From Plumapathes pennacea (Eukaryota; Cnidaria; Anthozoa; Antipatharia; Myriopathidae), in NCBI GenBank assembly GCA_964036295.1, contig OZ038467.1, positions 20,405,670 through 20,469,669 of the forward strand: a stretch of DNA of 64,000 nucleotides, written 5' to 3'. The stretch's first letter is position 1. Each line of letters starts with the position of its first letter. Shown piece after piece: positions 19,548-38,365 of the stretch. The notes beneath the pieces are model-generated. The model was not told the origin of the DNA. It was given only the letters and a program-made list of their open reading frames with translations, and did no database searches. A program made the position numbers and the translations under genes.

Positions 19548-19775
19548 CTGCGGAAGACAAAACATGTTCTCAAAACCCGTCCGTGCAATAAATGTACAGT
19601 CTTGTGAATTGTCAAATGGTTTTGCCATCACACTTCATTGCCCAAGTGTGTATCAAAGAGTCGTGTCACTTCCGGGTCTTGGAATTAGTATTAATCCTCT
19701 TCCCTTGCGGTTAATAGATTTAAACTTTTAATCAATAGTTGACTGATATTATTATATTGTACCAACTATATGCAC

Positions 19776-20011
19776 CTTCTTATTTCCAGTGCCACTGGTA
19801 TAAGCCTGGAAGAACTTCCACTGGTCTCCTTGGGAACCTGACTTGCTAAAAATAGGGTTTCCATCGACTGTGACCTGGAGTGACCCCATGGGCCATCCGT
19901 ACATGTGATAGTAAAAAGACAGACAGGAGCGACCACTCAGCGTGATCATGATGGACAGCTTGGCGTTATCACCTTTAACACGTCCATCAGCCTCGATGTA
20001 CATGTAACTAC
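19776..20011 (-). CDS. Surface-protein gene, exon 6: MAM domain middle
   Basis: 236-bp exon, acceptor AAATCTCAG|GT and donor AAG|GTGCAT, phase 1 in and 0 out. It encodes SYMYIEADGRVKGD, then LSGRSCLSFYYHMYG (third MAM cysteine plus the aromatic core), then GSLQVTVDGNPIF and DQWKFFQAY. MAM domains mediate homophilic adhesion or protease assembly in extracellular proteins. The intron before it is 11.3 kb and holds a host repeat, a Mutator-like insertion and the whole 8.85-kb TTAA-flanked element. Confidence 0.9.
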
Positions 20012-20642
20012 CTGAGATTTAACCAAAATGAGACATTTATTTAGTGCGAATAACGCTCTTATTAGTTGCCATGCCATGTCCATATTAAACTGAACATACA
20101 CAAAATATGACCTCCACCCAGCAACAAAGCGACCTCTATAAGAAATCCAAGAGGGTCTTGAAAGGGATTTCGAAATCGCCGGGTCACTGAGATTATCTTC
20201 AGTTATGATGGCACGGCAAATTAATGGATTTTAACCAATCCCTGTAGATCCAGAACACACGAACACAGGTTCGCGGCCATTTTACAGTCACTTACAATAG
20301 AAGTTAACTAGACTGGCCTTGCCAGTGAGCTCGCGGCGTGAGTTGGGTCGAGACCAGAATATATAATGTAAAGTAGGGGACAAGAGCGGAACTCCCAAGA
20401 GATACTTCCAATTTCTCACAATAAAAATATCACACAGTATAGAGAACTTGGCTTTTGACACCTTGCTCTTTTGACACCTTGATTAAACTAAAAATTATTA
20501 TTACAACACTCATACACTTGCTTGCTTCTTAAAGGTTGAGCGACCCTGCATCTTGAGAATGTGTGACATATCTTTTTATGCACAATCGATTATGACAGTT
20601 TGATCTTGACTCTTATTTCTAATCAGAGGCCACGATTAATCC

Positions 20643-21920
20643 GATAGTGACTAAAAGAACACACGAGTGACCACGAATGACCACGAGTGACCACGAGTGA
20701 CCACGAGTGACCACAAATGACCACGAGTGACCACAAATGACTACGAGTCAAAATAAGCTCCTCACGTGATTGTAACGTCATTTTATTGTCATTTTAAATA
20801 TCATGCACCCATGATAAAGTGTAAAAATTTCACAGCGTCATTTTAAAAAACAAACAATTCGAAGAAAACGCCGACCACAAGGCGTAAAGTACACACATGT
20901 CCCTTGCGTGACGAATCACGTGTCAGCGTCGGCTGTAGACAACGTGACACAGCGTGCTGTATTTAACTCAAACTCGTGACCCTACCGAACAGATTTGGCT
21001 CTTTTAATTAAGTCGTGGGAATTGCTCACTAAATTCACATGGCGTGGGAACCTACATATGATTGGCTGATGAGATAAGGCTGCTGAGATGTCAAAAAAAA
21101 TTGCATTTCTGGTCCTCTTGCCATGGAAGTCCGGATAAAAAAAACGGAAGGATTTTACTCCAAAAAAGTACGACCAAAGTAAGACAACGAAAAGACCTAA
21201 CACTGGAGTGAAGGACGTGGAGGTTGTTACTATCGGCGACGTGGAAAGTAAATAGGGACAACCGGCGGAAGAACAGAATTTCAGTAACTGAACAGAAACG
21301 TGCGAAAGGTGCTGCAGTCAGACCCCGAAAGTGATGATTCTGAATCACTACCAAATGCTGCACAGCAAAGTCCCGGCAGTCGTTTGTATTTAGTAAAATT
21401 TTTCAGACTCGGGGACACCCGATAAGCGGGTCATAAATAAAATTGATGTCACAGTCACGCGAGGGACTTACTTTAACTCTGGGTTCAGTTGTTCAAAGTG
21501 TGAATAGTGGATAAGTGTTAAAACTTAGCCTTATAGTATTAACTGGATAAGAATTTCTCCGGTGGATAGCGCTATCCGCTCTTTGAACAACTGGGCCCTG
21601 GTCGTTTGTAGCCTGTTCTGCAGTGAGTTGGTAATGACGTCACTGTCACGCTATGAATACTTTACGCCTTGTGGTCGGCGTTTTCTTCAAAGTTTTTGTT
21701 TTACACTTCATGAGCGGGTGATTTTACATTTCATATTTAGAGGATATTAAAATGACGTTACAGTCACATGAGGAGCTCACTTTGACTCATGGTCACTCGT
21801 GGTCATTCTTGGGCACTCGTGGTCATTCGTGGTCACTCGTAGTTATTCGTGGTCACTCGTAGTCATTCGTGGTCACTCGTGGTCATTTGTGGTCACTCGT
21901 GTGTTCTTTTAGTCACTATC
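20643..21920. mobile_element. Mutator-like non-autonomous transposon, 1,278 bp
   Basis: Ends GATAGTGACTAAAAGAACAC and its inverse are flanked by an exact 10-bp duplication CGATTAATCC (20,633-20,642 and 21,921-21,930). The uninterrupted site CCACGATTAATCCAGCC is present in repeat copy 2 at about 32,415. Terminal inverted repeats run about 260 bp (inner homology GGCGTAAAGTA...CTTTACGCC). Subterminal tandem decamers CGAGTGACCA are found at both ends. A 9-10-bp duplication and long TIRs are typical of MULEs. There is no transposase ORF. Confidence 0.9.
21481..21598. mobile_element. Small MITE nested in the Mutator-like element
   Basis: GGGTTCAGTTGTTCAAAG...CTTTGAACAACTGGGCCC inverted ends with internal GGATAAGTG and GGTGGATAGCGCTATCC palindromes. 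This hairpin type is common in anthozoan genomes. Confidence 0.8.
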
Positions 21921-22142
21921 CGATTAATCCAGCCTTCGCTTCACTACTTATGTGTTTTCTTTTATTAACTCAATGCGTGTCTTCTATCAGGCTTTCGAGT
22001 ATTCGTGCTCTGTAACAAATATAAAATTGAAAGCGAGGAATGTCACACGAGAGATGTTTACAATATTATTGCGGCTTTGTTCACAGTGTGTTCAGTCCAT
22101 TTGTGACTGCAAACTCAATCCTCAGAATTATTTCGGTGTATT

Positions 22143-22310
22143 TCGGCCGCGCCTACGAAGACTAAACTTAGTTCACAAAGAGAGCATCACTCTATTGATA
22201 TTTGGTAAGAAAATACCAAAGCAAAATATTCATTGCAAATCCTGTTGAGACAGAGAAACCTAAAAACCTAGGCCAGCCCACACTGCACGCCTCCAGAGGA
22301 GAAACACAGA
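22143..22310. other. Intronic spacer
   Basis: Unique-looking sequence between repeat copy 1 and the TTAA-flanked element; nothing recognised. Confidence 0.5.
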
Positions 22311-22314
22311 TTAA

Positions 22315-23402
22315 GAGCCTGTCCAGGAGAGGACCAGGCAGGGGCGACACATGCCATCTCACCGATTTCAATGAAACTTGGCCAGTTTGAAGGGTTCACC
22401 CTAAAACCTCAAAACCCAAAGTGGCTCGCTTTTTGAAATTTTCCGGGGGGAGTTAGACCACCCCCCCTGGTTTTCAAGGGAAAATGGGGTAAATCTGCCA
22501 AAATTAAACACATAAGTAGACAGCTCTCACATGCACATAATACAAAAGATTTTATTTTTATTTCACATGAGCACTTATACTACCTTTGTGAGTTCACAAC
22601 ATAAGTTTTGTGCCATATGAATAATTGCCTGCCAATCAATACTGGTTAATTACTGAGTAGGTAGTCAGGCTTTTTCCAAAAAGTTGAAAATTGGCTATTT
22701 TGAGCTTTATTATCTCTAGTTTGCATCCTGCTTTGGAAATAAGGCTTATATCCCAGTTGAGACCAACCTTAATGCTTCTCAAATAATTAAAAATATTTTT
22801 GGGCTCTTCAATATTTCCGACACAAACATTGATTACAAAACATCACCGGGCGTATGCAAATGAGGTCTCATGAAACTCTCTCTACTGACTCTTCATACGA
22901 AAATCCGTTTCAATTTGCTAGAAAAGTCACCAAAACTTCACCAAGGTATTCCAAGAGATACTCCAGGCAATACAATTCATCAAATTCGGGAAACATGATA
23001 TATGAGCACCAATCAACGCATATTAATCACTTACCATGTTTCTTTTTTTGTTTTTGTTTGTTTTTGTTTTTTTGCAAATAAAGAATTCACTAGGATCTAA
23101 ACGTATACTCTATCGTATACGTATACTCTATCGATCCTTGTTTAACTTGTTCAGCCCTTAAACAGCCAGGGGCGAGGACAAGTAATGAAACGCTAATTAA
23201 CATGTTCAAATTGTAACATTTTTCACCAGCATGGATTTTGGCGCACTGGGCGCGCTATTTGTACACGCACAAAAAGCTTGACTCGATTGAACTGTTACTT
23301 GAGATTGATCTTTCATTCTGCTTCATTTTTAAATACAGCAAGCATTTGAAAACCATTGCTTTTCTAAACAGTCGTTGAGAAACTTTACAAATCCTAGTGT
23401 TC
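22315..23402. repeat. Left terminal inverted repeat
   Basis: 1,088 bp. Homology to the right arm begins at GAGCCTGTCC and ends at ATCCTAGTGTTC, after which the sequences diverge. It contains a T-rich tract with TTTTTGTTTG motifs (about 23,040-23,075) and GTATACTCTATCGATAC-like palindromes. Confidence 0.9.
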
Positions 23403-23904
23403 GTAGAATGATGAGAAATTAGTTTCAACTTGGTAAACAACTCACCAAAACACCCCAGGACATGCAATAAAATTTCACTGCGAGCCAAAGCTCGGTAAAC
23501 TGATCAACGTACACTAACCAGTGAGCAGAAATAGTCTAAAAGGCTTGGGAACCCCATTGAAACGGTAAACATAAAGTAAGTATTTACAAATATCTCAAGG
23601 TTTACTCCAACGATGCCGTGGCGCTTAGTTTGCTCTTGAACAGGCATTAGACGAGAGGATTGGCGTGCCGAACGAGTGCTGATTTTACCTTCGATTTTAC
23701 AAAATGTACCTCGAAAGTCTGAATGTATTTTGCATGTAGTAAACGTTGTTGTTTGTCGAAAAATATCGGCTGATAATAAGCCTGTATACAAAATTCATAC
23801 TGTAAGAATAAAAAAACTTCAACTAAAGTTCCAGCTCCCTCCTGACGTGCCTCCTGGTTCGCTCGTTGTCCGCCTCGGCAATGAAGGGCTCATCATGATC
23901 ACTG
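23403..23904. other. 3' region of the DDE-like gene
   Basis: Sequence between the left TIR and the stop codon, presumably the 3' UTR. AATAAA-like motifs can be seen on the minus strand, but the end of the transcript cannot be set. Confidence 0.35.
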
Positions 23905-25137
23905 TCAGCGGCTGCGGTTGCTCTGGAGGCGTCTCGTGGAAGACGGCCTCTCTTGTTCAGGGCCTAGAGCCTGCTGAAGAAGCGCGTGATTTGTGCTGTA
24001 CTCAGCCACTCTGACTTCCCAAACAACTTTGCGCCATCGTCTCTGCGGGTGCTTTTCATCCGTGGTAGGTTTCGCTTTATTCCCTGTTTCCTCACCTTGA
24101 AGGAAAACCTGTTTCAGGTATTTTCTGACATTGCCAGAGAACTGCGCGACTTTCTTCGGCCTCTTGAGCGCCCACCCCTCTTCTATTGCTGGCGCGCCCT
24201 GTTCACCTGAAGTTGCCATGCTGCTGCCGTAGGCAGATGGGTTGCCGTGGACATAACTCCCAGACACAGACCTGCAAGCTTCGACCCATTTGCGCTTGAT
24301 CTCATTGTACAGGGTCTCGCGCTCTAGCTTCAACAGGTGCTTTCGAACATCAAGATGGCGCTGCAGGGTGCTGTAAGATTGATACACTTTTATACACCCG
24401 TCCTCCGGGCATGCAAAGTGTACCTCGTCTGTCTCTCCCATGGTTTCCTCGTCCTCGTGGTGCGATGGCCCTGTTTGTTTTTCAGTGGGACGAGGTCTAG
24501 ATGTCGCGACCCTCACAGTAAAAGCTCCAACTGGCATTCTTGGTTGACTAAATGGCTGGACTGTTACAAGATTGGTAGGGCCTTGAGGAGATCCAAACTT
24601 CAGTAGCTGTGCTGAAGTAAATAACTTTCCAGGTCCAACATTATAGGCTCGCCAGACCCTCAGTCCCCCGGCCTCATATGCAAAGTTGTTGAGAGTGGTG
24701 ACGCCGCTCATGGTGTGCTTTTTCATGGTCATCGACGAGGTTTGGACTTGACACACCGCTCCATAGCAGCCTTTGACTCCCCCGTGCGACTCGATGGCAG
24801 CTTTCATGTCCGCTGCGGATTTGACATCGTGCCCTTCGTTTATAAAACACCTTATATGGCTTTTGACAGCGGCAATGCGGCGGTCGCAGATGTCTTTGCC
24901 TGCCTGGGTCTCGCTAAAGTCGTAGCGTGCAATTGTCACACCAATCCGCTGCCCAAGGCTCGGGAGAGAGAGAAGGAGGTACGCACAATGGTAGCAACCA
25001 GCGTTGTCTGATCTTAGGAATGCTTGAGAGAGCTCTGGTTTGAGTTCCTTGAGTATCGATAAGGTGTTCTCGACAATGGATGCCACTGCAAACCAGTTTT
25101 GAGTGCAATCCTCGAATAGGTGAATGTAGGTTCTGGT
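23905..25137 (-). CDS. DDE-like recombinase gene, last exon (catalytic part and C2H2 finger)
   Basis: 1,233-bp terminal exon, acceptor CTGTTTAG|ACC, phase 0, ending TGA. Numbering from the first open codon of the 5' exon, it holds the putative second catalytic Asp (about D703) in FLRSDNAGCYHC, an arrangement like the integrase SDNG strand. A third acidic candidate lies in ETQAGKDICDRRIAAVK (E735, D741 or D744). A single C-x4-C-x12-H-x5-H zinc finger (CPEDGC ... LQRHLDVRKH) is near residue 900-925, with a basic C-terminal tail. The gene matches a protein type I recall as 'uncharacterised' in cnidarian genomes. Nuclease or transposase activity is inference from the fold-like motif spacing. Confidence 0.85.
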   Translation of the reverse strand, partial: TRTYIHLFEDCTQNWFAVASIVENTLSILKELKPELSQAFLRSDNAGCYHCAYLLLSLPSLGQRIGVTIARYDFSETQAGKDICDRRIAAVKSHIRCFINEGHDVKSAADMKAAIESHGGVKGCYGAVCQVQTSSMTMKKHTMSGVTTLNNFAYEAGGLRVWRAYNVGPGKLFTSAQLLKFGSPQGPTNLVTVQPFSQPRMPVGAFTVRVATSRPRPTEKQTGPSHHEDEETMGETDEVHFACPEDGCIKVYQSYSTLQRHLDVRKHLLKLERETLYNEIKRKWVEACRSVSGSYVHGNPSAYGSSMATSGEQGAPAIEEGWALKRPKKVAQFSGNVRKYLKQVFLQGEETGNKAKPTTDEKHPQRRWRKVVWEVRVAEYSTNHALLQQALGPEQERPSSTRRLQSNRSR

Positions 25138-25287
25138 CTAAACAGAAAATAAACATGTTCATTAAACTAGAAATGCTAAATTGCCCGAGTGGAACCCCTT
25201 TAATAGTATTTGCCATATTGTTATGCTTCTTTGAGGTAATGTGATTACCAGTCCGGTCCTTCCTTGTGTGTCACATATAATAATTAC

Positions 25288-25570
25288 CTCTATTTCGGCA
25301 GTCTCGCGGTCTTTGGTTATGGCTACGGTCACGTGCCAAGATTTCCCCTTCTTCCCAAACCAGTCCCGTTGGGTCTCTCGGTAACTGGTCGGTAGGAACT
25401 TCATCGCCCAGTCCATGATTAGCAGCACTTGCGTGTCGGTTAGGTTGTCAATGATCACCGATTTGGCCAAGTCTTGGTGCACTGCACGCAGGATATGAGA
25501 CTTCCACTCCTCGAGATGTGGCAACGCTGTTTCAACATCATGCTGAAGTTCTTCGCGTTCCTCCATGTTA
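25288..25570 (-). CDS. DDE-like recombinase gene, exon with first catalytic Asp
   Basis: 283-bp exon, acceptor ATATTTCAG|T and donor ATAGAG|GTAATT (phase 2 in, 0 out). It encodes an amphipathic lead-in (MEEREELQHDVETAL), then LLIMDWAMKFLPTSYRE and RDWFGKKGKSWHVTV. An Asp on a predicted beta strand (about D618), followed by a Gly/Trp beta-hairpin, is the expected start of an RNase H-like nuclease fold. Asp-to-Asp spacing to the SDNAG motif is about 85 residues, within the range seen in DDE enzymes. Confidence 0.85.
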
Positions 25571-25657
25571 CTGAAATATATAATACGTTAGTGTTAGGAG
25601 CCACCTGTAAGGGTTCAATCACACAGCAACAACATTGCAGATAATTTAGCTAATTAC

Positions 25658-25919
25658 CTGGACTTGACATCAGAAAAAGTCGGGGCCAACTGCAAGTCGA
25701 TAAGTGCAGTTTTGATGTCTTCACAACGGTCACAAGTGACGTCATGCAGGTGCTCGCAATTCCCTCGGTACTCCTCTTCAGCACTGCTTAACGCGTGCAC
25801 GCTGCAGTGGTCAGCACAAGGGGCTTCCCTGGAAATGTGCAACTTGAAGTCTGTTTTCCAGTAATGCCTTGCTCCTTTTAGACCACTAAGGATACTCTTT
25901 GATGTGTCATCTTTGAGAC
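25658..25919 (-). CDS. DDE-like recombinase gene, Cys/His-rich exon
   Basis: 262-bp exon (phase 1 in, 2 out), donor TCCAG|GTAATT. It encodes GLKGARHYWKTDFKLHI, then a probable zinc-binding module CADHCSVHALS ... NCEHLHDVTCDRCEDIK. Regularly spaced Cys and His suggest structural metal binding just before the catalytic fold. Confidence 0.85.
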
Positions 25920-26424
25920 CTATTCAAACAAAGAACGTAAGTGCTGAAACATATTCTTGAGTAAAACACCGGAGTAAAACCAACATTAAGTCCGAAAAAT
26001 ATTCTCTGTAATTTACTGTAGATTGTCCCTCTTAAAACGGTCATCTTTATTAAGCGGCCACTGTGGCCTATGAGCGGTCCCAACTGACGCTTCGTATTGT
26101 ATAAATTAGTTTGGCGCACTTTTTACCACGAGGGAACCGAGACTAAGCGAGAGCTAAATTAAAGAACGTAGAACACTTAATTAATGTCAACATCACTCAA
26201 AATGTTACACCTCAGCCAAGCTTACAGATAATCAAACTCAATGCGTCATCAAACAAAGCTTGACCACACCCAAGGCCCATTGTTGGTGTCCCTCACAAAG
26301 CCATTGCCCGAGCCGGGTGGCCGCTTAATATAGGTTTTTGTGAGATGCACCGTGAGCATTTTTTCTTAATTTTTCATTTTGTAGTCGCGTCGTGAAAAAA
26401 ACAATCACTGTATAATGAACATAC

Positions 26425-26536
26425 CAAGCAGACCCAGCTGACCAGTTGTCTCTTCCAAGGTATTGATTGCGAACACACCATTTGTTTGCGTGCTGTCTAA
26501 TCCAGCGAGGGACTTTTTTTGTGAGGCAGCACAAAC
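26425..26536 (-). CDS. DDE-like recombinase gene, short helical exon
   Basis: 112-bp exon, acceptor ACTTTCAG|GTT and donor CTTG|GTATGT, phase 0 in and 1 out. It encodes VCAASQKKSLAGLD, then TNGVFAINTLEETTGQLGLL. It continues the helical DNA-binding-like region ending the previous exon (STLFSIIK). Confidence 0.85.
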
Positions 26537-26992
26537 CTGAAAGTAAACAAATTAAGAAGACAGTCATAAATTAGCTATCAACGTTGAGCTGCTTTCAAAA
26601 GACAGGATTCTTGTTTGCTTCACTTTCCAATTGGTACAAACAAGTTTGGCAGCAATTTTGGTTAATCAAGAGCAAAACCAAAACCTGATTATAGTATTTT
26701 TTACACGAGAAAGTAAGTGATAAAAGTGTATCCTCGCACTTCTGATTAACGTCTTTTATAAGCTACTTTGGCAATTCTGATTGGGTGAAATTGTTTTCTA
26801 CAGCCTCTGTGATTGGCGGTGTACTTGCTTTGGTTTTGCTTTTAGAAAGTCATCCGAAAACGACTCTATACAATTAGCCAACTTGCAAAACATCTATCAA
26901 CATTACCGATGACTATCACTGACAATTTATCTCAACAAATGACCAATAAAGCACAATAAGGCATGACACTGACAGCGCTATTATAAGTATAC

Positions 26993-27787
26993 CTTAATAA
27001 TACTGAAGAGCGTAGATCGTCGCATTGCAGCAAAGCCGGTTTCTGCACAATAGGTTTGGTACAGTTGCACAAGACGAGAAGCGATGACCGTGCGAACCAC
27101 ATTTGGTATTTGTATTTTTTCTCCGCTCGACAATCTTAGCGTTTTGGTTCCGTAGGCGACGTCCTGAAGAAATGAAGGACTGGACAAAAAGTCGATGAAG
27201 TGGTCGACTTTTACAGGATCTTGGCGTGTTCTAACAACTGCTGGAGGCTCGATTGGCTGGCCTGGCTTGTTCTTAAAGGCGTGCTTCCGGGCTTCGTCGA
27301 CTCTCCACTTGGTAAGACCAGGAATAAGCTGCATAAGTTCCGTCTTCGAAAAATCACCTGCTATAAGTGAGAGAATCTGCTGCTTCGTGTACCATGAGTT
27401 AGCCTCCTCATAGAGGACTACCAGTCGATGCACCAGGGTGTCCTCGTTGACTCCCTCTATTTGGCGTTGATCTCTGTATTTGTCGACGGCCTGTTGGAAC
27501 AGCCACGACGAGTTTCCAGGGGCAATGGCATCTAACAAGGAATCAACAGCTTGCGAGGCCTTGCGCTTGTAGTATCGAAGGGATGTGGAGGATAGCGTCA
27601 GTACGTCACTTGTACACTGCGACCTTATAGGGCTAACACGACCATCTGATGTCTTGCGCAAGAAGTTGTTCAGATACTGGAGTCTGTGAGACACCTGGGG
27701 CGTTGGCTGCCATTCCTGCGAAGTCTCACCCTCGGCAACTGAACCCTGGGAGGACGAGGAGAAGATGTCGGAGTTCTGATCGCTTGG
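26993..27787 (-). CDS. DDE-like recombinase gene, large exon (helical DNA-binding-like region)
   Basis: 795-bp exon, acceptor CAATTGCAG|CCA and donor TTAAG|GTATAC, phase 0/0. After a Ser/Gln-rich acidic linker (SDQNSDIFSSSSQGS) it encodes a helix-rich region. One part is TKQQILSLIAGDFSKTELM and GLTKWRVDEARKHA, which reads like a helix-turn-helix with a recognition helix. The other part is PNVVRTVIASRLVQLYQTY and FAAMRRSTLFSIIK. The layout of helix-turn-helix region before a nuclease fold is common in transposases; DNA binding is inferred. Confidence 0.87.
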
Positions 27788-28194
27788 CTGCAATTGAATA
27801 TATAATATAACAAAATATAAGCTGACAGGAAGCGCAAGACACATTTTAGTAGTGATATTCAATTAGTGGTATCGTAACTAAGACTGAACCTATAGGCTCT
27901 AAAGGAACGGGACGTTCGACCGAGCGACCAAGAAATATGGGCAGAGCGAGTCGACTTTCACCACAAGGAACTCGCCCAGACCGCCAAAGGATGCCATACG
28001 AAGTTAGATACAGTGACTGCAATTTGGATGCTGAAGAACAAAGATAGAGCAAACACTACAAACGCGCAGAAAGCAAGAATAAAACGTTGAGCCACCAGCT
28101 GGATTATTGAGGACAGAATCAGCCATGGAATTCAAGGTAATTAGTCAAGAGTGTACTTGCCGGATTAAGTAGTTATTAGGACAAAAATCTCTAC

Positions 28195-28394
28195 CTCACT
28201 TAAAAGATCTTCTTGATATCGGACGTGCAGGACGGGTGAGAGTACCTCATGCAGATCAACCTCAGCTGCTTTGTCGTCGACGACTTCCATCGACTGTTCT
28301 TCTTTCCGTTCTTCTTCCTCTGTCGTTTCCTGGACATCTTGCTCTGCCTGTTCTATAGCGGCGCGATGCTCAACTCGACATAATCTACACAATC
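28195..28394 (-). CDS. DDE-like recombinase gene, acidic exon
   Basis: 200-bp exon, acceptor AATACAG|GA and donor AGTGAG|GTAGAG, phase 1 in and 0 out. It begins LCRLCRVEHRAAIEQ (a CxxC plus His completing the N-terminal zinc module) and continues as an acidic helix (EQDVQETTEEEERKEEQ). Confidence 0.85.
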
Positions 28395-28555
28395 CTGTAT
28401 TATACCAAAACAAAGATGACTTTCAAAAAACGATTATTAGGAAATCATAGATTACAACTTGTACTGAGTACGGCTTTTATCTTGTATAAGAACAATGCAT
28501 GCAAAATTGAGAACCTACTGTTAAAGAATTAGAAAAAAAAAAACATCTTTCTTAC

Positions 28556-28889
28556 CTGCGCCAACAGCAACAACTACATTCCATTTTGCCTTTATTTCTT
28601 TTGCCATTTGGAGGTTTATTTCCCTATCCGGCTTTCGTTTCCCGCGTCCATGGAGAGGATGAAGGCATTTCTTTTTGGGACAAAAGATCACCCCGAGTTT
28701 GGCCCGGTGCTTTGGGCAAATGGTAAGGCCGTGACCATCCTCGTCGAAAAGACCTGCTCGTGCTAATATTAGCTCTTTCTCGGATGAAACACATGTTTGA
28801 GATACTCTCACTTGTTTCAGATGTGACTTTATATTGCTATTGCAAGCATTCAGGGCGAGAATTCCCTGTGTCCTCTCCACCGAGAAGAT
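28556..28889 (-). CDS. DDE-like recombinase gene, N-terminal zinc-binding exon (5' end unresolved)
   Basis: Open from just after a TAA near 28,890 down to donor GGCGCAG|GTAAGA. It encodes ILARAGLFDEDGHGLTICP, then KHRAKLGVIFCPKKKCLHPLH, with C-x2-H and C-x4-C-x3-H spacing suited to zinc. No in-frame ATG precedes this module, so the start codon must lie in an upstream exon not identified, or has been lost. From the GTG at 28,880 to the stop, the seven exons sum to 3,210 nt, exactly 1,070 codons, with every junction in phase. Confidence 0.75.
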
Positions 28890-29531
28890 TTATCGCACTG
28901 ACTTCTGCAGTAACTAAAGAACGAGCAAGAGCGTTGCGACATTGCGAATGGTCGGGTGATCTGTAAATAGGAGCTCTTATACCAAAGCACGTCCACGTGT
29001 TGCAATGACGCACGTAAAAAAACTAAAAAAACACACGTAAATGAAGTTCCCACGCTACAAACAATGAGTTGACACTTGAAACCTTTGTTATTTGCTCAGA
29101 CGAAGGGCTAGCGCTCAAAACGTCAGCTTCAAATTCTTTCATGGTGTCCAACTTTCACACATAGATCCTTTGTCGATCCAAGTTATATTGTCAAGGAACA
29201 ATTCGGAACAATTTGGAAGTTTATTATAAAGAATAATATTTCGGCTATCCTGGAGCGAACTTGTATTTGCAAACGGAAGAGCTCAAATTTGACCTTCGGA
29301 CTTAGGTTTGCAGTAGCCTTTAGGAGCATAGTTCATAAATGAGGTCAGCAAAGCATTTGCGTGTGCATCACAAACCACAGGAAAGGCATAACGCCAGGTT
29401 CGCTACGAACGTGTCTGTCGGTCCGCTTTACCTGCACGATTTGAGCAAGCTGCCGAGTATTTGCACGGCATCGTGATGCACAGACACCTTAAGGGGCCTT
29501 TACAGTCGCCTATGCCGCGGAAGTACTTTCT
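28890..29531. other. 5' region of the DDE-like gene inside the element
   Basis: Presumed promoter and 5' UTR region. A candidate upstream ATG frame (MSQRSCSFFSYC, near 28,940) ends at a possible splice site but is not in frame with the gene without splicing. Nothing else recognised. Confidence 0.35.
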
Positions 29532-29703
29532 GTTGCACTCGTAAACTCAACGTCTGAACGGCTTTTATTCGAACGAGAACACAGACTCAAAACTCTACCG
29601 ACTACAAAAGCACATGGTTTTCTCCTCCAACTCTCTTCCCGGACTCCCTTTCGGTTGCTCCTGGCCGCGGTGGTCTGGAAGCTAACTTTAGCCCCACTAC
29701 ATT
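29532..29703 (-). repeat. Short LTR remnant with adjacent polypurine tract
   Basis: TGTTGCACTCG...GCCCCACTACA has TG...CA ends. On the minus strand it is directly preceded by the purine tract GGAAAAGGGTGGAAA. This suits the 3' LTR of a small (TRIM-like) element nested in the transposon. No second LTR was found. Confidence 0.35.
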
Positions 29704-30079
29704 TCCACCCTTTTCCGTTCTGACTTTATCGTGGTTTTGCTATCTAATTTAGTTGTTTACCCAAAAGGAAGTTTGTAACCGCTGTGTGTGCTCCCTATAC
29801 TTAACCGCTAGCTTGTAGTGCAGAGTTCAGTTAGAGTCGGAGCCCGAGCTCTCCGTTCGAAGCTCAAGAGCTCAGCCAAGATTCACGAGTAAAGAAGTCA
29901 ACAAGGCTAGAAGCGAGTCCCCATAAAATCTGCTCCGCAACAATATGTACTTCTCCACGCCGATGAAGTCAATCTAGTTCCCTTTAGAGCTTGTTTTCCA
30001 TTGCATTATTTGTATTCTGTTTTATAATCACAGATTGCAATCACATGGGTGCTGTGTTTTTGCAGATAACGCACTCTAT

Positions 30080-31166
30080 GAACACTAGGATTTGTAAAGT
30101 TTCTCAACGACTGTTTAGAAAAGCAATGGTTTTCAAAAGCTTGCTATATTTAAAAATGAAGCAGAAAAGATCAATCTCAAGTGACAATTCAATCGAGTCA
30201 AGGTTTTTTGTGCGTGTACAAATAGCCAAAATCCATGCTGGTGAAAAAGGATACAATTTGAACACTTTAATTAGCGTTTCATTACACGTCCTCGCCCCGT
30301 GGCTGTTTAAGGGCTAAACAAGATAAACAAGAATCGATAGAGTATACGTATACGATAGAGTATACGTTTAGATCCTAGTGAATTCTTTATTTGCAAAAAA
30401 AAAACAAAAAACAAAAAACAAAACAAAACAAAACAAAAAAAACATGGTAAGTGATTGATATGCGTTGATTGGTGCTCATATATCATGTTTCCCAAATTTG
30501 ATAAATTGTATTGCCTGGAGTATCTCTTGGAATACCTTGGTGAAGTTTTGGTGACTTTTCTAGCAAAATAAAACGGATTTTCGTATGAAGAGTCAGTAGA
30601 GAGAGTTTCATGAGACCTCATTTGGATACGCTCGGTGATGTTTTGTAATCAATGTTTGTGTCGGAAATATTGAAGAGCCCAAAAATATTTTTAATGATTT
30701 GAGGAGAATTAAGATTGGTCTCAACTGGGATATAAGCCTTATTTCCATAGCAGGATGCAAACTAGAGATAATAGAGCTCAAAATAGCCAATTTTCAACTT
30801 TTTGGAAAAAGCCTGGCTACCTATTCAATAATTAACCAGCATTGATTGGCAGGCAATTATTCATATGGCACAAAACTTATGTTGTAAACTCACAAAGGTA
30901 GTATGAGTGCTCATGTGAAATAGAAATAAAATCTGTTGTATTATGTGCATGTGCGAGCTGTCTACTTATGCGCTCAACTCTGGTAGATTTTCCCCATTTT
31001 TCCCTTGAAAACCAGGGGGGTGGTCTAACTCCCCCCGGAAAATTTCAAAAAGCGAGCCACTTTGGGTTTTGAAGTTTTAGGGTAAACCCTTCAAACTGGC
31101 CAAGTTTCATTGAAATCGGTGAGATGGCATGTGTCGCTCCTGCCTGGTCCTCTCCTGGACAGGCTC
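30080..31166. repeat. Right terminal inverted repeat
   Basis: 1,087 bp inverted copy of 22,315-23,402 with similar A-rich tract and GTATACG palindromes. The outer end GGCTC|TTAA lies 141 bp from MAM exon 5. Confidence 0.9.
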
Positions 31167-31307
31167 TTAATACCTTCCCCACGGGGAGGGTGTAAAGTTG
31201 GTGTTTCTTTATTGCATCTGTCACGGCTTCCCCCTGACTTCAGCATAACCAATTACCTTCTCCCCTTCCCTTTCCTCAAAAAGGAAAATGTATTATATCC
31301 TTCTCAC

Positions 31308-32105: not shown

Positions 32106-32639
32106 GTAACTAGACTGGCCTTGCCAGTGAGCTCGCGGCGTGAGTTGGGTCGAGACCAGAATATAAAATGGAAAGTAGGGGACAAGAGCGGAACTCCCAA
32201 GAGAGACTTCCAATTTCTCACCATAAAAATATCACACAGTATAGAGAACTTGGCTCTTTTGACACCTTGATTAAACTAAAAATTATTATTACAACACTCA
32301 TACACTTGCTTCTTAAAGGTTGAGCGACCCTGCATCTTGAGAATGCGCGACATATCTTTTTATGCACAATCGATTATGACAGTTTGACCTTGACTCATAT
32401 TTCTAATCAGAGGCCACGATTAATCCAGCCTTCGCTTCACTACTTATGTGTTTTCTTTTGTTAACTCAATGCGTTTCTTCTATCAGGCTTTCGAGTATTC
32501 GTGCTCTGTAACAAATATAAAATTGACAGCGAGGAATGTCACACGAGAGATGTTTACAATATTATTGCGCTTTTGTTCACAGTGTGTTCAGTCCATTTGT
32601 GACTGCAAACTCAATCCTCAGAATTATTTCGGTGTATTT
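32106..32639. repeat. About 540-bp dispersed repeat, copy 2 (uninterrupted)
   Basis: Same orientation as copy 1 at 20,304-22,142. It preserves the empty site for the Mutator-like insertion (CCACGATTAATCCAGCC). Confidence 0.9.
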
Positions 32640-33221
32640 TTCATTTCTGGTATTTAATGAACATTGCGAAACAAAGACTACATGATCAAATGAAAGAAAC
32701 ACTTCAACAGGCAATGTACGATACGCAGAAGAATTTTATGAGGCAACAGATGTCATGTACAGAGTAAAGCATAAAGCGTCATTGTTTTACGGCTAAAGCT
32801 CACCGTAGCTTTGGTTTCTGTTTTCGCCCTGTTATCTTCCCAAAAGTATTTCGTGTCGCCACAGAAAGTTTCGTCGGGACTAAATATTTATCGGCGACAG
32901 CGGTACCATCAAATATTTGTTTACGGCTATTCTCAAAGCTTCCGCGGTGAACGCGAGCCAAAATCGTTCCCGAAAATCCAGTTTATCCGTGCATATTCCA
33001 CAGAGCCAAATGGTGTTGAGTTTGGATGGGATGCAGTTAACTTTTACACACAAGTAACGAGCAATTCACTGGCCACATCTCGAGTTGTTTAGCGAAGTCA
33101 ATTACGTCATCGCCCAGCACGTGATAATATGAACCAATCACCGTGTGCTGATTCTCGACCCACAAAAAGGAAAAAATAAATAAAAATTCCCATTTTAAGC
33201 TCTCGTGGGCCCCAGGCCCCC
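32640..33221. other. Element interior, no recognised gene
   Basis: A 36-codon frame (from 32,657, MNIAKQRLHDQMKETLQQAM) is coiled-coil-like but isolated. The motif GATAATATGAACCAATCACCG (33,121-33,141) recurs at 45,189-45,209 and inverted near 62,975. Confidence 0.35.
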
Positions 33222-33545: not shown

Positions 33546-34629
33546 CCCTCCCAGTCGCCGTTTTCCTTGTTAATAATTCTCTATACCCGCCTCCTATTGG
33601 CCAGCGAAAGGTACGCCCCCACAAACCAAAGGTCACTTTACATTTCACGTGGCCACGATTCGACTTCGTTTACAACTGCCTGTCGTATTGCAACCCAGTA
33701 TTTTACTTAGCGTTTGGATGCAGTCCTACGGCATCGATCTTCGGAAATCTATCGAGGTAAGTCAATTCCTTCCACCTAATTTTTTCCCTCCCCTCCTTGT
33801 GTCGAAGTCTTGACCATCTTCCCCGCCTTCCTCCTTTCACCCTCAACTCGGCCAGGGCCAAAAGTTTGTAACCGTTGATCGTGTGGGGCATGGATGGCGC
33901 GCGCCTACCATTTCGAAACACGTACTATTGAAGGAACTTTCACCTTCATAGAGCAACCGCGTTACTATGCCCCTGATGAGAATAGCGCGGTTGCTTCGAC
34001 GGACAAACCTCAAATGATGGTCATTAGTTCGACACACTTTTTAGAGCGCTCTTTCCTACACCACCCGTTTAACTTCCACTTTTATTAATTACTGTTACTG
34101 TGTTAGCGTCTTCACTAATTCCTTCGTTTTTCAGTTCTCTGTTTATTGTATTCTCGGTTTTATTCGCTCTTCGCTCCCGTCCCCTTTGTTACCCAACACA
34201 CGTGTTAACTACCGACCCCAACTACATGTCTCCCTACCGAAAATGTTCCCTACACAAATACAAGCCCTGACACGGACCCCATTTTAGCGCTGCAGCATAT
34301 AATCACGTAATAACGCACATCATTTTAAGTTATACTTCACTTCGCCACTCGATCACTCCCTTAACCTCATATAACTCATCCACTATTATTCTTAATAAAA
34401 TAGCACAGGGGTTAAAATACCCGTGACACAATTCAAACTATTCTGATGATGTCTCACGGGCCCCCATCCATGAATCGAGGAAGTTCTGTTAGTCAAATCA
34501 ACCAACGACAGCTCTCGGTTTGGTCCCTTCAAACTTTAGCCGAGCTGGTTACAGAAAAAAAATATTACATTGGACTTGACCTTGGGACTCCTATAAACCA
34601 TTAACTTATAAAAACATGAAAACATTTAC

Positions 34630-34902
34630 CTGGAGGGCGTACAAAAACCTCTTTGGTTGCGCTGACGACTCCTCGTTTGTTTGTTGCTATGCAGGTGTAG
34701 TATCCAGAATCGTTAATCTGTGCTTTGTTTAAGCTGAGTCTGCCATCTTGTTGGTGGCTTCTACCCTCTGGCAGTGGCAACAGGGATCCTGTCCACTCGA
34801 CGGTCGGTTTAGGTTCACCGGAGGCAACGCACTCAATCGTTATATTTTCCCCGATTACCAGGTAAGTAACATTTTTGGGTGCTTTGGTGAACGAAGGATA
34901 AG
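34630..34902 (-). CDS. Surface-protein gene, exon 4: first Ig domain
   Basis: 273-bp exon, acceptor TGTTTCAG|CT and donor CTCCAG|GTAAAT, phase 1/1. It encodes YPSFTKAPKNVTYLVIG, then NITIECVASGEPKPTVEWTG, then NDSGYYTCIATNKRG, a complete Ig domain with both cysteines and the core Trp. It is very similar to exon 8 of the same gene, including the E/IEWTG motif. Confidence 0.92.
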
Positions 34903-35826
34903 CTGAAACATAAAATACAGTTCTGTTTGTGTTGCGCTTTTTACACACAACTACAAGTGAAATTAACTATCGCCTTATGGACTGCACAACTCTCTAATAT
35001 ACTATACCTTGTTATCGATAAACGCTAAGCGGCCAGAACAAACTTGGCGAGACTGTACACTCAAGAGGGTTTTACTTTTTATTTGGGAAATGGGGGAGGA
35101 AAGATGGGAGGATGAAGCAGTAATACTGAAAATGTCTAAAATAAACGCGTGTGGTTCACGTCCAGCTTACTTTCTGTTGCCTGGGATATGTCGAATGTAA
35201 TTTGTGGGTTTATAATTTCAAATTGTAAATGGCATATACATGAACTTTGCGGCACTTTTGTAATTTGAGACTACTGGAGCTCTGTTTTTTCTTCATTGAT
35301 CACATGTATATTATTATTCAAATCGCACAGGAAGACTTACAATCAGCAACTGCCACAAGATAAAAGAAAATTTGCAGCTGACAGCCAGCTGTTTCCCAGT
35401 TCATCAAAGCAAAATTAACAGAATATTCTGCGTCCCGGTGAACTGAAGTCGCAAAATCTTGAAATTAGTTTTAAGAGGGAGACTTGGGAGGGGATACTGA
35501 CTGCCATTTAGATCCGTCCGTGACAACCCCTTTTCCAGGTTAATTAGTGACTCTTGCGTGACTGTCATGCAAGCGTGCCGAGTTCAACGTCATCACAAGA
35601 ATCACGTTCATACTTTTTAAACTTTCGCAAAATGATATCATATCAAATTACACAATTCTCAACTGAGCAACAATCATACCAACACATTCTTGATCAACAA
35701 AGCCAAAACAACTTAAACACAAGCCTGGAAATGACTAAACGCGCCCAGACAAAAGTGAATAAGATGTTAATGGGCTACTCATTCTTGTGTCTATCTATCA
35801 GCAGTGTGAAGAAGTCGTGTACTCAC

Positions 35827-36105
35827 ATCCAAGAGTCTCGAATAAAATTTCGTTGCTCCACTTCTTAAGTTGTTTGTCGTCCTCCGTTGGCGTGACTCGA
35901 ACTCTGTACTCAGTGTTTAGATCAAGATGAGTCAGGTTGACTTTGGTGACGTTTTCTGGCTGTGCAACACCGTGGAATTGAGCTGTTGTCGTCGAGTTTT
36001 TGCGATTGGTGGATTCAATGTCGTAACCAGCCCACAGAGTGCTGTTGCTAGTCATGATTGACAGCACTGCTTGCCTCTCCTCAATATCCTCGACCTTTAG
36101 TTCGA
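35827..36105 (-). CDS. Surface-protein gene, exon 3: second FN3-like domain
   Basis: 279-bp exon, acceptor CTGTCACCAG|TC and donor GGAT|GTGAGT, phase 1/1. It encodes ELKVEDIEERQAVLSIMT, WAGYDIESTNR, then LTHLDLNTEYRVRVTP, the L.P.T.Y.V.V signature of a fibronectin type III fold. It is homologous to exon 2 (37,473-37,748), so it arose by exon duplication. Its acceptor is the seed of the adjacent 45-bp minisatellite. Confidence 0.88.
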
Positions 36106-36810
36106 CTGGTGACAGAGAAACGAGAATATCTTGGAGTTATATAGTTAAGGTTAGAGTTAGGGTTAGTTTAATACATAGAAACGAGACTAGTTTAATACAG
36201 ACTAGTGTAATACATAGAAACGAGAATACACTGGAGTTATACAGCTTGACTGGTGACAGAGCAGCGCGAAAATACATTGGAATTAAATAACTTGACTGGT
36301 GACAGAGAAACTAGAAGACATTTGAGTTATGTAGCTCGACTGGTGACAAAATAAACAAGAATATCGTGGTGCTATATAGCTCGACTGGTTACAGAGAAAC
36401 AAAACTACACTGCAGTTATATAGCTTGACTGGCTACAGAGAAGCCAGATAACATTGGAGTTATATAGTGTGACTGATGACAGAGAAACGAAAATACATTG
36501 ATACATTGCAGTTATATAGCTTGATTGGTGACAGAGAAACTAGAATACATTGGAGTTATATAGCTTGACTGGTGACAGAGATACGAGAATACGATGAAGT
36601 TATATAGCTTGACTAGCGACAGAGAAACTAGAATACGATAGAGTTATATAGAGCTTGATAGGTAAGAGAAAAACTTGAATACATTGGAGCTATATAGCTT
36701 GACCGGTGAAAGAAAAACAAGAATATCGTGGAGTTATACAGCTTGACTGGCTACAGAGAAACAAGTCACTGGAGTTATATAGCTTGAACTGTTACAGCGA
36801 AAAGGTGGTA
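36103..36810. repeat. About 45-bp minisatellite carrying the exon-3 splice acceptor
   Basis: About fourteen degenerate units GCTTGACTGGTGACAGAGAAAC followed by a GAATACATTGGAGTTATATA segment. On the coding strand each unit reads a pyrimidine-rich TTCTCTGTCACCAG|TC, the same as the true acceptor at 36,105. A related single unit sits at the exon-2 acceptor (37,740-37,785). Confidence 0.92.
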
Positions 36811-37472
36811 GCATGTTAGCACGTCATATATTCGTTGATTAAAATCGCCTTGTTCTTTTTTCAATCATTTCAATACGTCCTTGTTTCAAAAAGGAAGTAA
36901 ATATAAGCCGCTGTCTTATTGAAGTGTACACAAACTTCTGCTTAAAATTGCAATTATGTCTGCAAATCACTTGATATTTTATTTCAATATTTTTAGATCA
37001 ATTTTTAAATGTACAAAAACTTCTCTCCAGTTTTGGTATGTTTTGTTTTTTCTCGACAATTTCCAAATTTCTGTGATCGAAGCACAGTTTTGCATTTGAT
37101 CGCCACAGGGACCCACGATTCTCAAGTTTCCAAGCCAAGAAATTCACAGATGATTATATAGACACTAAACTTCCTGCCAATTTTTTTTTTTTTTTTTTTT
37201 ACTTTTCTAGGAGCGGTGAAAAGAAGATAACTGAAAAGGTGCGGTGCTCGACATGACGCAACAATATGGCGCACACATCGGCGTACACGCGTGAACACGA
37301 GCGCGTGTCCACGCACACATGACAACTAATCATTTGAGAATGAACGAGACAGCGATTGACAAAACAAAAAGGATGTTAATATGGTACAACTCCTATTTCC
37401 AACAGGGTGTAACTATCTGAACTGTACCCTGAGGACATTCAAATTGATCGACAGAAAAAACCGCGTGCTCAC

Positions 37473-37748
37473 CAGGTGTCTCGAATAAAGCTCCATCGAT
37501 CCATTTCTCAGGTTCCTTGAAATCTTTCGCAGGTCTGACACGAACATTGTACGAAGTACCAGGATCAAGACGAGGTAGGGTTATTTTGGTGACGTCAACT
37601 CCTGGCTGTACAATATGCTTAGACTCAAGCGGCTTCATGGTTCTGCGATTAACGAGCTCGATGATGTAGGCTGCCCAATGAGAATTCTTAGGTTTTATCA
37701 CAGACAGCACTGCCTCTCTTGGTGTGGTCTTCTCGACCTTCAGGCTGA
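37473..37748 (-). CDS. Surface-protein gene, exon 2: first FN3-like domain
   Basis: 276-bp exon, acceptor CTGTCACCAG|TC and donor CACCTG|GTGAGC, phase 1/1. It encodes SLKVEKTTPREAVLSVIK, AAYIIELVNRR, then LPRLDPGTSYNVRVRPA, and ends EKWIDGALFETP, in parallel with exon 3. It joins exon 1 as EEKL-V-SLKVE. Confidence 0.88.
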
Positions 37749-38365
37749 CTGGTGACAGAGGAAAATACATTAGATATTATATCGACAGCGCATTTTCGCA
37801 CTACTTCCTTTCCTATATATAAAATAAGATCCAATGAATTTAATCTGGTTACAGATGGCAAACCTTTCTGCAATAACACCCTCATTAATCCAAGCATGGT
37901 TCTTAACTGAAACTAATATAAACGCAGAAAGCTAAAGGGTCCATTCAAGGAATTAACTAAACCAAAATAAATACACAGAATTTTTTTGCTTCCAAGAACA
38001 AGAAAAAAAAAGAAAAAAAGAAATTAACATCGAAAGTAATACGGTAGGCTGCATGCGCGGCACTGCTAACTTCCCTTCTTTCCACTGATTGACATTATTT
38101 TATTTTGCATAAGAACACCGAGAACTCCTTGCCCAATCAAGTAAACTCTTCAATACAAACTATAGAATTCAGTGTGTCTCAAAAACAGCGGCAGCGCTTT
38201 CAGTTCGAAATAATTAAAAAAACCGGAACTGTCAACTTCACATATTCGCGGGCTGATTAATGCACTCCTGTTTTGTGCCGGATCACGATCTCTCTCAGGA
38301 AAATATATTTACAATTCAGAAGTTAGTATTGGTAATCACACGATTTCGAATGCAATTTCGAATAA

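Follow-up and report, generated by a model that had tools for sequence, protein, structure and literature searches.

The 8,852-bp block at positions 22315-31166 of the window, the whole 64,000-nucleotide stretch of Plumapathes pennacea DNA that was analyzed, is very probably (we put the probability at roughly 0.9) a copy, locally decayed, of an autonomous DNA transposon that moves by cut and paste. Its organization as a unit, the other copies of that unit in the genome, the duplication of TTAA at its ends, and the conservation of an acidic triad throughout the family of its transposase are seen directly in the sequence.

The block is delimited by two inverted arms of 1,095-1,096 bp, a left terminal inverted repeat (TIR) at 22315-23410 (plus strand, on the 3′ side of the gene) and a right one at 30072-31166 (minus strand, on the 5′ side), which are 92.4% identical over 1,117 alignment columns, TTAA included. 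The outer terminus of each arm is GAGCCTGTCC, and TTAA lies directly outside it (22311-22324 and 31157-31170, TTAA and terminus together), as the preliminary description had reported. The left target-site duplication at 22311-22314 adjoins GAGCCTGTCC and corresponds to a single TTAA in two empty paralogous sites; the right one, at 31167-31170, is placed by the reading of the terminus together with the empty sites. When up to two mismatches were allowed, TTAAGAGCCTGTCC occurred twice, both times exactly, compared with 0.38 occurrences expected, and at least two occurrences were found in 8 of 100 shuffles. A short terminus by itself would not prove an element; the arms are far beyond chance. A DNA fold computed for the window terminus gave a hairpin (z −2.25), on which our reading does not draw.

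A search of the genome with the left end returned 154 candidates, 40 of which were scored. Eighteen of the scored ends form nine pairs at 92-100% identity, two are fragments of a single degraded copy on C12, and the other 20 come from diverged families. Three pairs on C6, including that of the window, have a common left flank, and the right flank of the window directly adjoins the second of these pairs and lies 3.26 kb beyond the third, so the nine pairs represent about seven insertions. The expectation that other copies would also be bounded by TTAA was borne out: TTAA was directly outside all 37 fetched ends, that is, all hits outside the window that reach the terminus, some of which share flanks through segmental duplication and are hence not independent. 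The exact 28-bp terminus occurs at 28 places in the genome and is preceded by TTAA at 22 of them; the other six are preceded by ATAA (four), AAAA (one), and TAAA (one), and five of these six lie in one cluster (C1:26.39-26.59 Mb) in which the inner sequence is changed. The complete unit of arm, gene, and arm was present in all six of the nine pairs that were fully read, with arms spanning 1,078-1,111 bp (for the larger pairs C10a, C10b, and C1 the reading covered just the ends). In three diverged copies the arms measure 907-919 bp. As to arms standing alone as separate repeats, which would speak against a single element, 18 of the 20 high-identity ends are paired and the other two come from the degraded C12 copy. 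Taken alone, the window would also allow the interpretation that two unrelated repeats flank a host gene by chance. We regard this as vanishingly improbable, since the same unit recurs at different sites in every fully read copy and the empty sites are precise.

The empty sites were sought by joining the flanks of 13 insertions in silico and searching the genome with ten of the junctions (C10b, SC4, and SC5 were left out). Uninterrupted matches were found for six of the ten, namely the window, C2a, C10a, C4, C1, and DC2, the last of which is a diverged copy in a satellite. The junctions of C2b and C6c had no uninterrupted match in the genome search, and those of DC8 and DC2b had none among the matches listed. 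Nine of the matching places, for the window, C2a, C10a, C4, and C1, were then read at the base level. The overlap of the left and right flanks was TTAA at eight of the nine and GTAA at the ninth; the overlap for C1 was printed as TTTAA, which is due to a right-flank string taken one base too long. The window insertion has two empty paralogues, both on C10. The preliminary description had called for orthologous empty sites; those read here are paralogous repeats and not orthologous loci, and a single TTAA in the empty copies of five targets shows that the element inserts into TTAA and duplicates it.

The position of the block inside an intron of a host gene with a MAM domain, as claimed earlier, was supported by minus-strand Pfam matches to MAM (19752-20018), Ig (34601-34966), and fn3 (35798-37776), with an EGF-like match just below the cut-off. 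The element sits between the MAM and the Ig/fn3 exons of the host gene, on the same strand.

The gene between the arms is also on the minus strand. Its seven exons join in one frame of 3,201 nt (from 28871-28556 to 25137-23905), and all six introns have a GT donor and an AG acceptor. Exon 1 (28556-28942, start codon placed at 28942 from the sister copies) encodes an N-terminal Cys/His region, and only its part at 28871-28556 is in frame with exon 2, owing to a 1-nt deletion. It is followed in the joined frame by exon 2 (28195-28394), exon 3 (26993-27787), and exon 4 (26425-26536). Exon 5 (25658-25919) carries a conserved Cys/His cluster and exon 6 (25288-25570) a DWAMK motif with the first Asp; exon 7, as it is open in the window (23905-25137), carries the second Asp, the third acidic residue, and a C2H2-like finger, and the end of its frame is shifted by an 11-nt deletion. 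An exon-by-exon alignment with five sister copies (94.5-99.5% identical) showed that both deletions are found in the window copy alone. As a result, roughly the first 28 codons are read in a different frame from the remainder, and the last 84 residues are replaced by 53 out-of-frame residues. The gene had been described as a single intact multi-exon gene; the seven exons in one frame hold, whereas the intactness does not, and judging from its sequence no complete protein can be produced from the window copy. In one sister copy (C2:16321731-16330425) all seven exons are open, from MSQLSC to RRELEL followed by a stop. Another (C2:27507254-27515847) is interrupted by one stop and lacks 39 nt in frame; frame shifts and stops are present in the remaining three.

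The copies differ little from each other. Among four copies that are separate insertions, the 5′ arms are 96.0-98.7% and the 3′ arms 95.2-99.4% identical to each other, compared with 94.1-97.6% between the 5′ and 3′ arms of different copies and 94.3-97.5% between the two arms within one element. Like arms are thus only slightly closer to each other than unlike arms, and in a tree of 5′ and 3′ arms the like arms group with moderate support (0.73-0.80). Across the internal regions, five copies show 97.4-99.2% identity, suggesting that the element spread rather recently. In five exon comparisons with two copies of a diverged family, the amino-acid identity was 59-73% and dN was 0.19-0.31 (NG86), with a dS that was not finite, which we read as saturation. 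A third diverged copy, broken with stops, was 39-52% identical with a dN of 0.38-0.56; of its two comparisons, one gave a dS of 3.7 and the other no finite value.

More distant relatives are present in the same genome. A search with the query P0006 gave at least 48 matches, with 42 of 1,073 candidates scored, and at least 12 of these each consist of one open frame, 921-1,032 residues long, with no stop. Three of the four relatives that were fetched are bounded by TTAA and have TIRs of 575, 970, and 993 columns. They start with GTGTCATTGTC, GAGTCACTGTC (other end GAGTCGTTGTC), and GAGGCTGTCTC, and both DWAMK and AGCY are present in their longest open frames, of 1,032, 1,003, and 1,016 residues. 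The fourth, L061, had no terminal repeats within the 9.4 kb fetched.

A protein-database search found homologues of the transposase in at least five animal phyla (Cnidaria, Mollusca, Nemertea, Echinodermata, and Cephalochordata), and among the named proteins those of Porites and Actinostola are nearest. In prokaryotic genomes 119 stretches, and in viral contigs 50, matched one of the two peptide patterns used for each, and none encodes a relative, the reach of both searches being strings near the patterns.

The layout of zinc-binding and DDE-like parts noted from the exons was supported: zinc-binding motifs are present, and the D-D-D triad and predicted fold point to a core of the DDE/D type. 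D648, D732, and D773 are conserved in 140 of 140, 141 of 142, and 139 of 141 rows of the alignment, respectively, and there are 40 residues between the second and the third Asp. Position 764 is always acidic (77 E and 64 D in 141 rows), which makes it uncertain whether D773 or E/D764 is the third catalytic residue. The structure model is of modest quality, with a pLDDT of 64.8 (78 for the block that contains D773) and a pTM of 0.42. It predicts an RNase H/integrase-like core in which three acidic residues lie where the expected elements place them, and their position in it suggests a catalytic role for D648, D732, and D773. The RNase H fold is common to DDE/D transposases generally. The likeness to the catalytic core of retroviral integrase lies in the predicted fold, and at 8-14% identity in the rows no sequence kinship is claimed. 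With Foldseek, no PDB structure matched at E 0.001 or better, the first rows being a terminase nuclease domain and Argonaute-type proteins, and a profile search of the PDB at E up to 1 gave ten chains, mostly named as zinc-finger proteins.

We propose the following mechanism for the transposition of the element. The seven exons would encode a transposase of about 1,100 residues, which would bind the inverted ends of about 1.1 kb and excise the element with a D-D-D active site of the RNase H/integrase type. The ends would then be joined to TTAA on both strands with a 4-bp stagger, and repair would produce the duplication. Binding of the ends, DDD chemistry, and movement by cutting and pasting rather than by copying are what we infer. 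The window copy would now be a passive substrate; since both of its ends are preserved, protein made elsewhere in the genome could still mobilize it.

More than one superfamily of transposons uses TTAA. That it is not a piggyBac, despite the TTAA duplication, had been suspected from the look of the protein. piggyBac elements have CC[C/T]T termini and TIRs of 12-19 bp according to PMC2872659, compared with GAGCC termini and TIRs of 1.1 kb here, and no piggyBac transposase model was among the Pfam matches of 16 alignment members (E 0.01), seven homologues (E 1), or six window exons (E 1). Ends, TIR length, and protein together rule out this identity, for which we see next to no probability. Kolobok, another superfamily that duplicates TTAA, is unlikely. 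According to PMC9587614, Kolobok ends are 5′-RR and YY-3′, which the GA...TC ends of the window family fit, and the signature of the superfamily is C/DxxH between the second and the last catalytic residues. However, with D773 taken as the last residue, this signature appeared in none of 16 rows and in one of 141, which disfavors Kolobok; the spacing of the second and third Asp also differs, and the relative L058, which has the same kind of protein, begins with GT and not with RR.

We consider group Sola3 of the superfamily Sola the likeliest class, going by the published description of its anatomy. Sola3 elements target TTAA, as this element does. As described in PMC10741241, Sola elements have a DDD transposase, a target-site duplication of 4 bp, a length of 2-9 kb (some over 15 kb), and TIRs of 11-1124 bp. 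The element has a D-D-D triad (with a catalytic role suggested by the model, and E/D764 as the alternative for the third residue) and a 4-bp duplication, and its 8,852 bp and its TIRs are within the published ranges. The proposal of the preliminary description that this is a new type of transposon is therefore not upheld. Two published observations speak against this label. For a moth Sola of unspecified group, the preferred site listed in a table of PMC5704228 is AT. Furthermore, among the molluscs surveyed in PMC10294476, Sola was found in bivalves only, whereas the family of this transposase also occurs in the limpets Patella and Lottia.

It is also possible, though doubtful, that the element represents an unnamed TTAA-specific D-D-D superfamily that differs from piggyBac, Kolobok, and Sola; its members, in the five phyla named above, would combine inverted ends of kilobase length with a zinc-rich transposase some 1,000 residues long. 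None of the homologue names listed (37 listed; 120 of 317 listed) is that of a known DNA-transposon superfamily, although Transposon Tf2-6 poly is the name of one homologue. With the window exons, the homologues, or the alignment members, no family of Pfam or NCBIfam reached its cut-off, and four motif strings of the transposase family had no occurrence in the literature searched. However, the absence of a name is weak evidence, and the anatomy fits the account of Sola in PMC10741241.

Public animal proteomes contain many members of the transposase family, labeled "uncharacterized protein" and the like, and with such uninformative names and no Pfam model they can be mistaken for genes of the host. 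An enzyme that is specific for TTAA without being a piggyBac transposase would offer a useful comparison, in which one target is chosen by different proteins. The element most likely belongs to an already known group of transposons; if it should fall outside Sola, it would represent a new superfamily with a broad reach in animals.

The segment that holds the window transposon copy seems to be present three times on contig C6 of the same genome, at 20.43, 22.94 and 23.01 Mb, as judged from common flanks of which about 100 bp were compared. One of the copies with these flanks, C6c, is adjoined by an insert of 3.26 kb (C6:23022433-23025696), which stands between its right TTAA and the flank known from the window copy. 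The two ends of this insert are inverted matches of each other, and a genome search found its end again on further contigs. Based on these inverted ends and their recurrence, it appears that a second element used the same TTAA as the C6c transposon copy.

Near the insertion in the window lies a tandem 10-bp repeat of the TCGTGGTCAC type (21767-21926). Two stretches in equal orientation, one on each side of the element (21928-22248 and 32424-32657), have near-identical open-frame translations and represent a repeat of the host that lies close to the target site. The diverged copy at C2:22475913 (L026/L027) is flanked by a satellite of about 195 bp, which, among the matches listed, occurs as many uninterrupted units on C1, C2, C5 and C6.

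Two relatives of 4.8-4.9 kb, L052 (C5:11441238-11446136) and L053 (C4:23421759-23426538), have arms of 0.97-1.48 kb that are about 99% identical, and their interiors contain only gene fragments, some of them inverted or with stops. They are likely to be non-autonomous derivatives. In a 0.2-Mb cluster on C1 (26394324-26587430), the transposon terminus occurs five times; ATAA stands before four of these copies and AAAA before the fifth, and their inner sequence is changed. This cluster is possibly an amplified or satellite-like derivative.

Whereas the putative transposase gene of the window family has seven exons, at least 12 genome matches, among those listed, have one long open frame, a difference that would reflect introns gained or lost within a transposase lineage.
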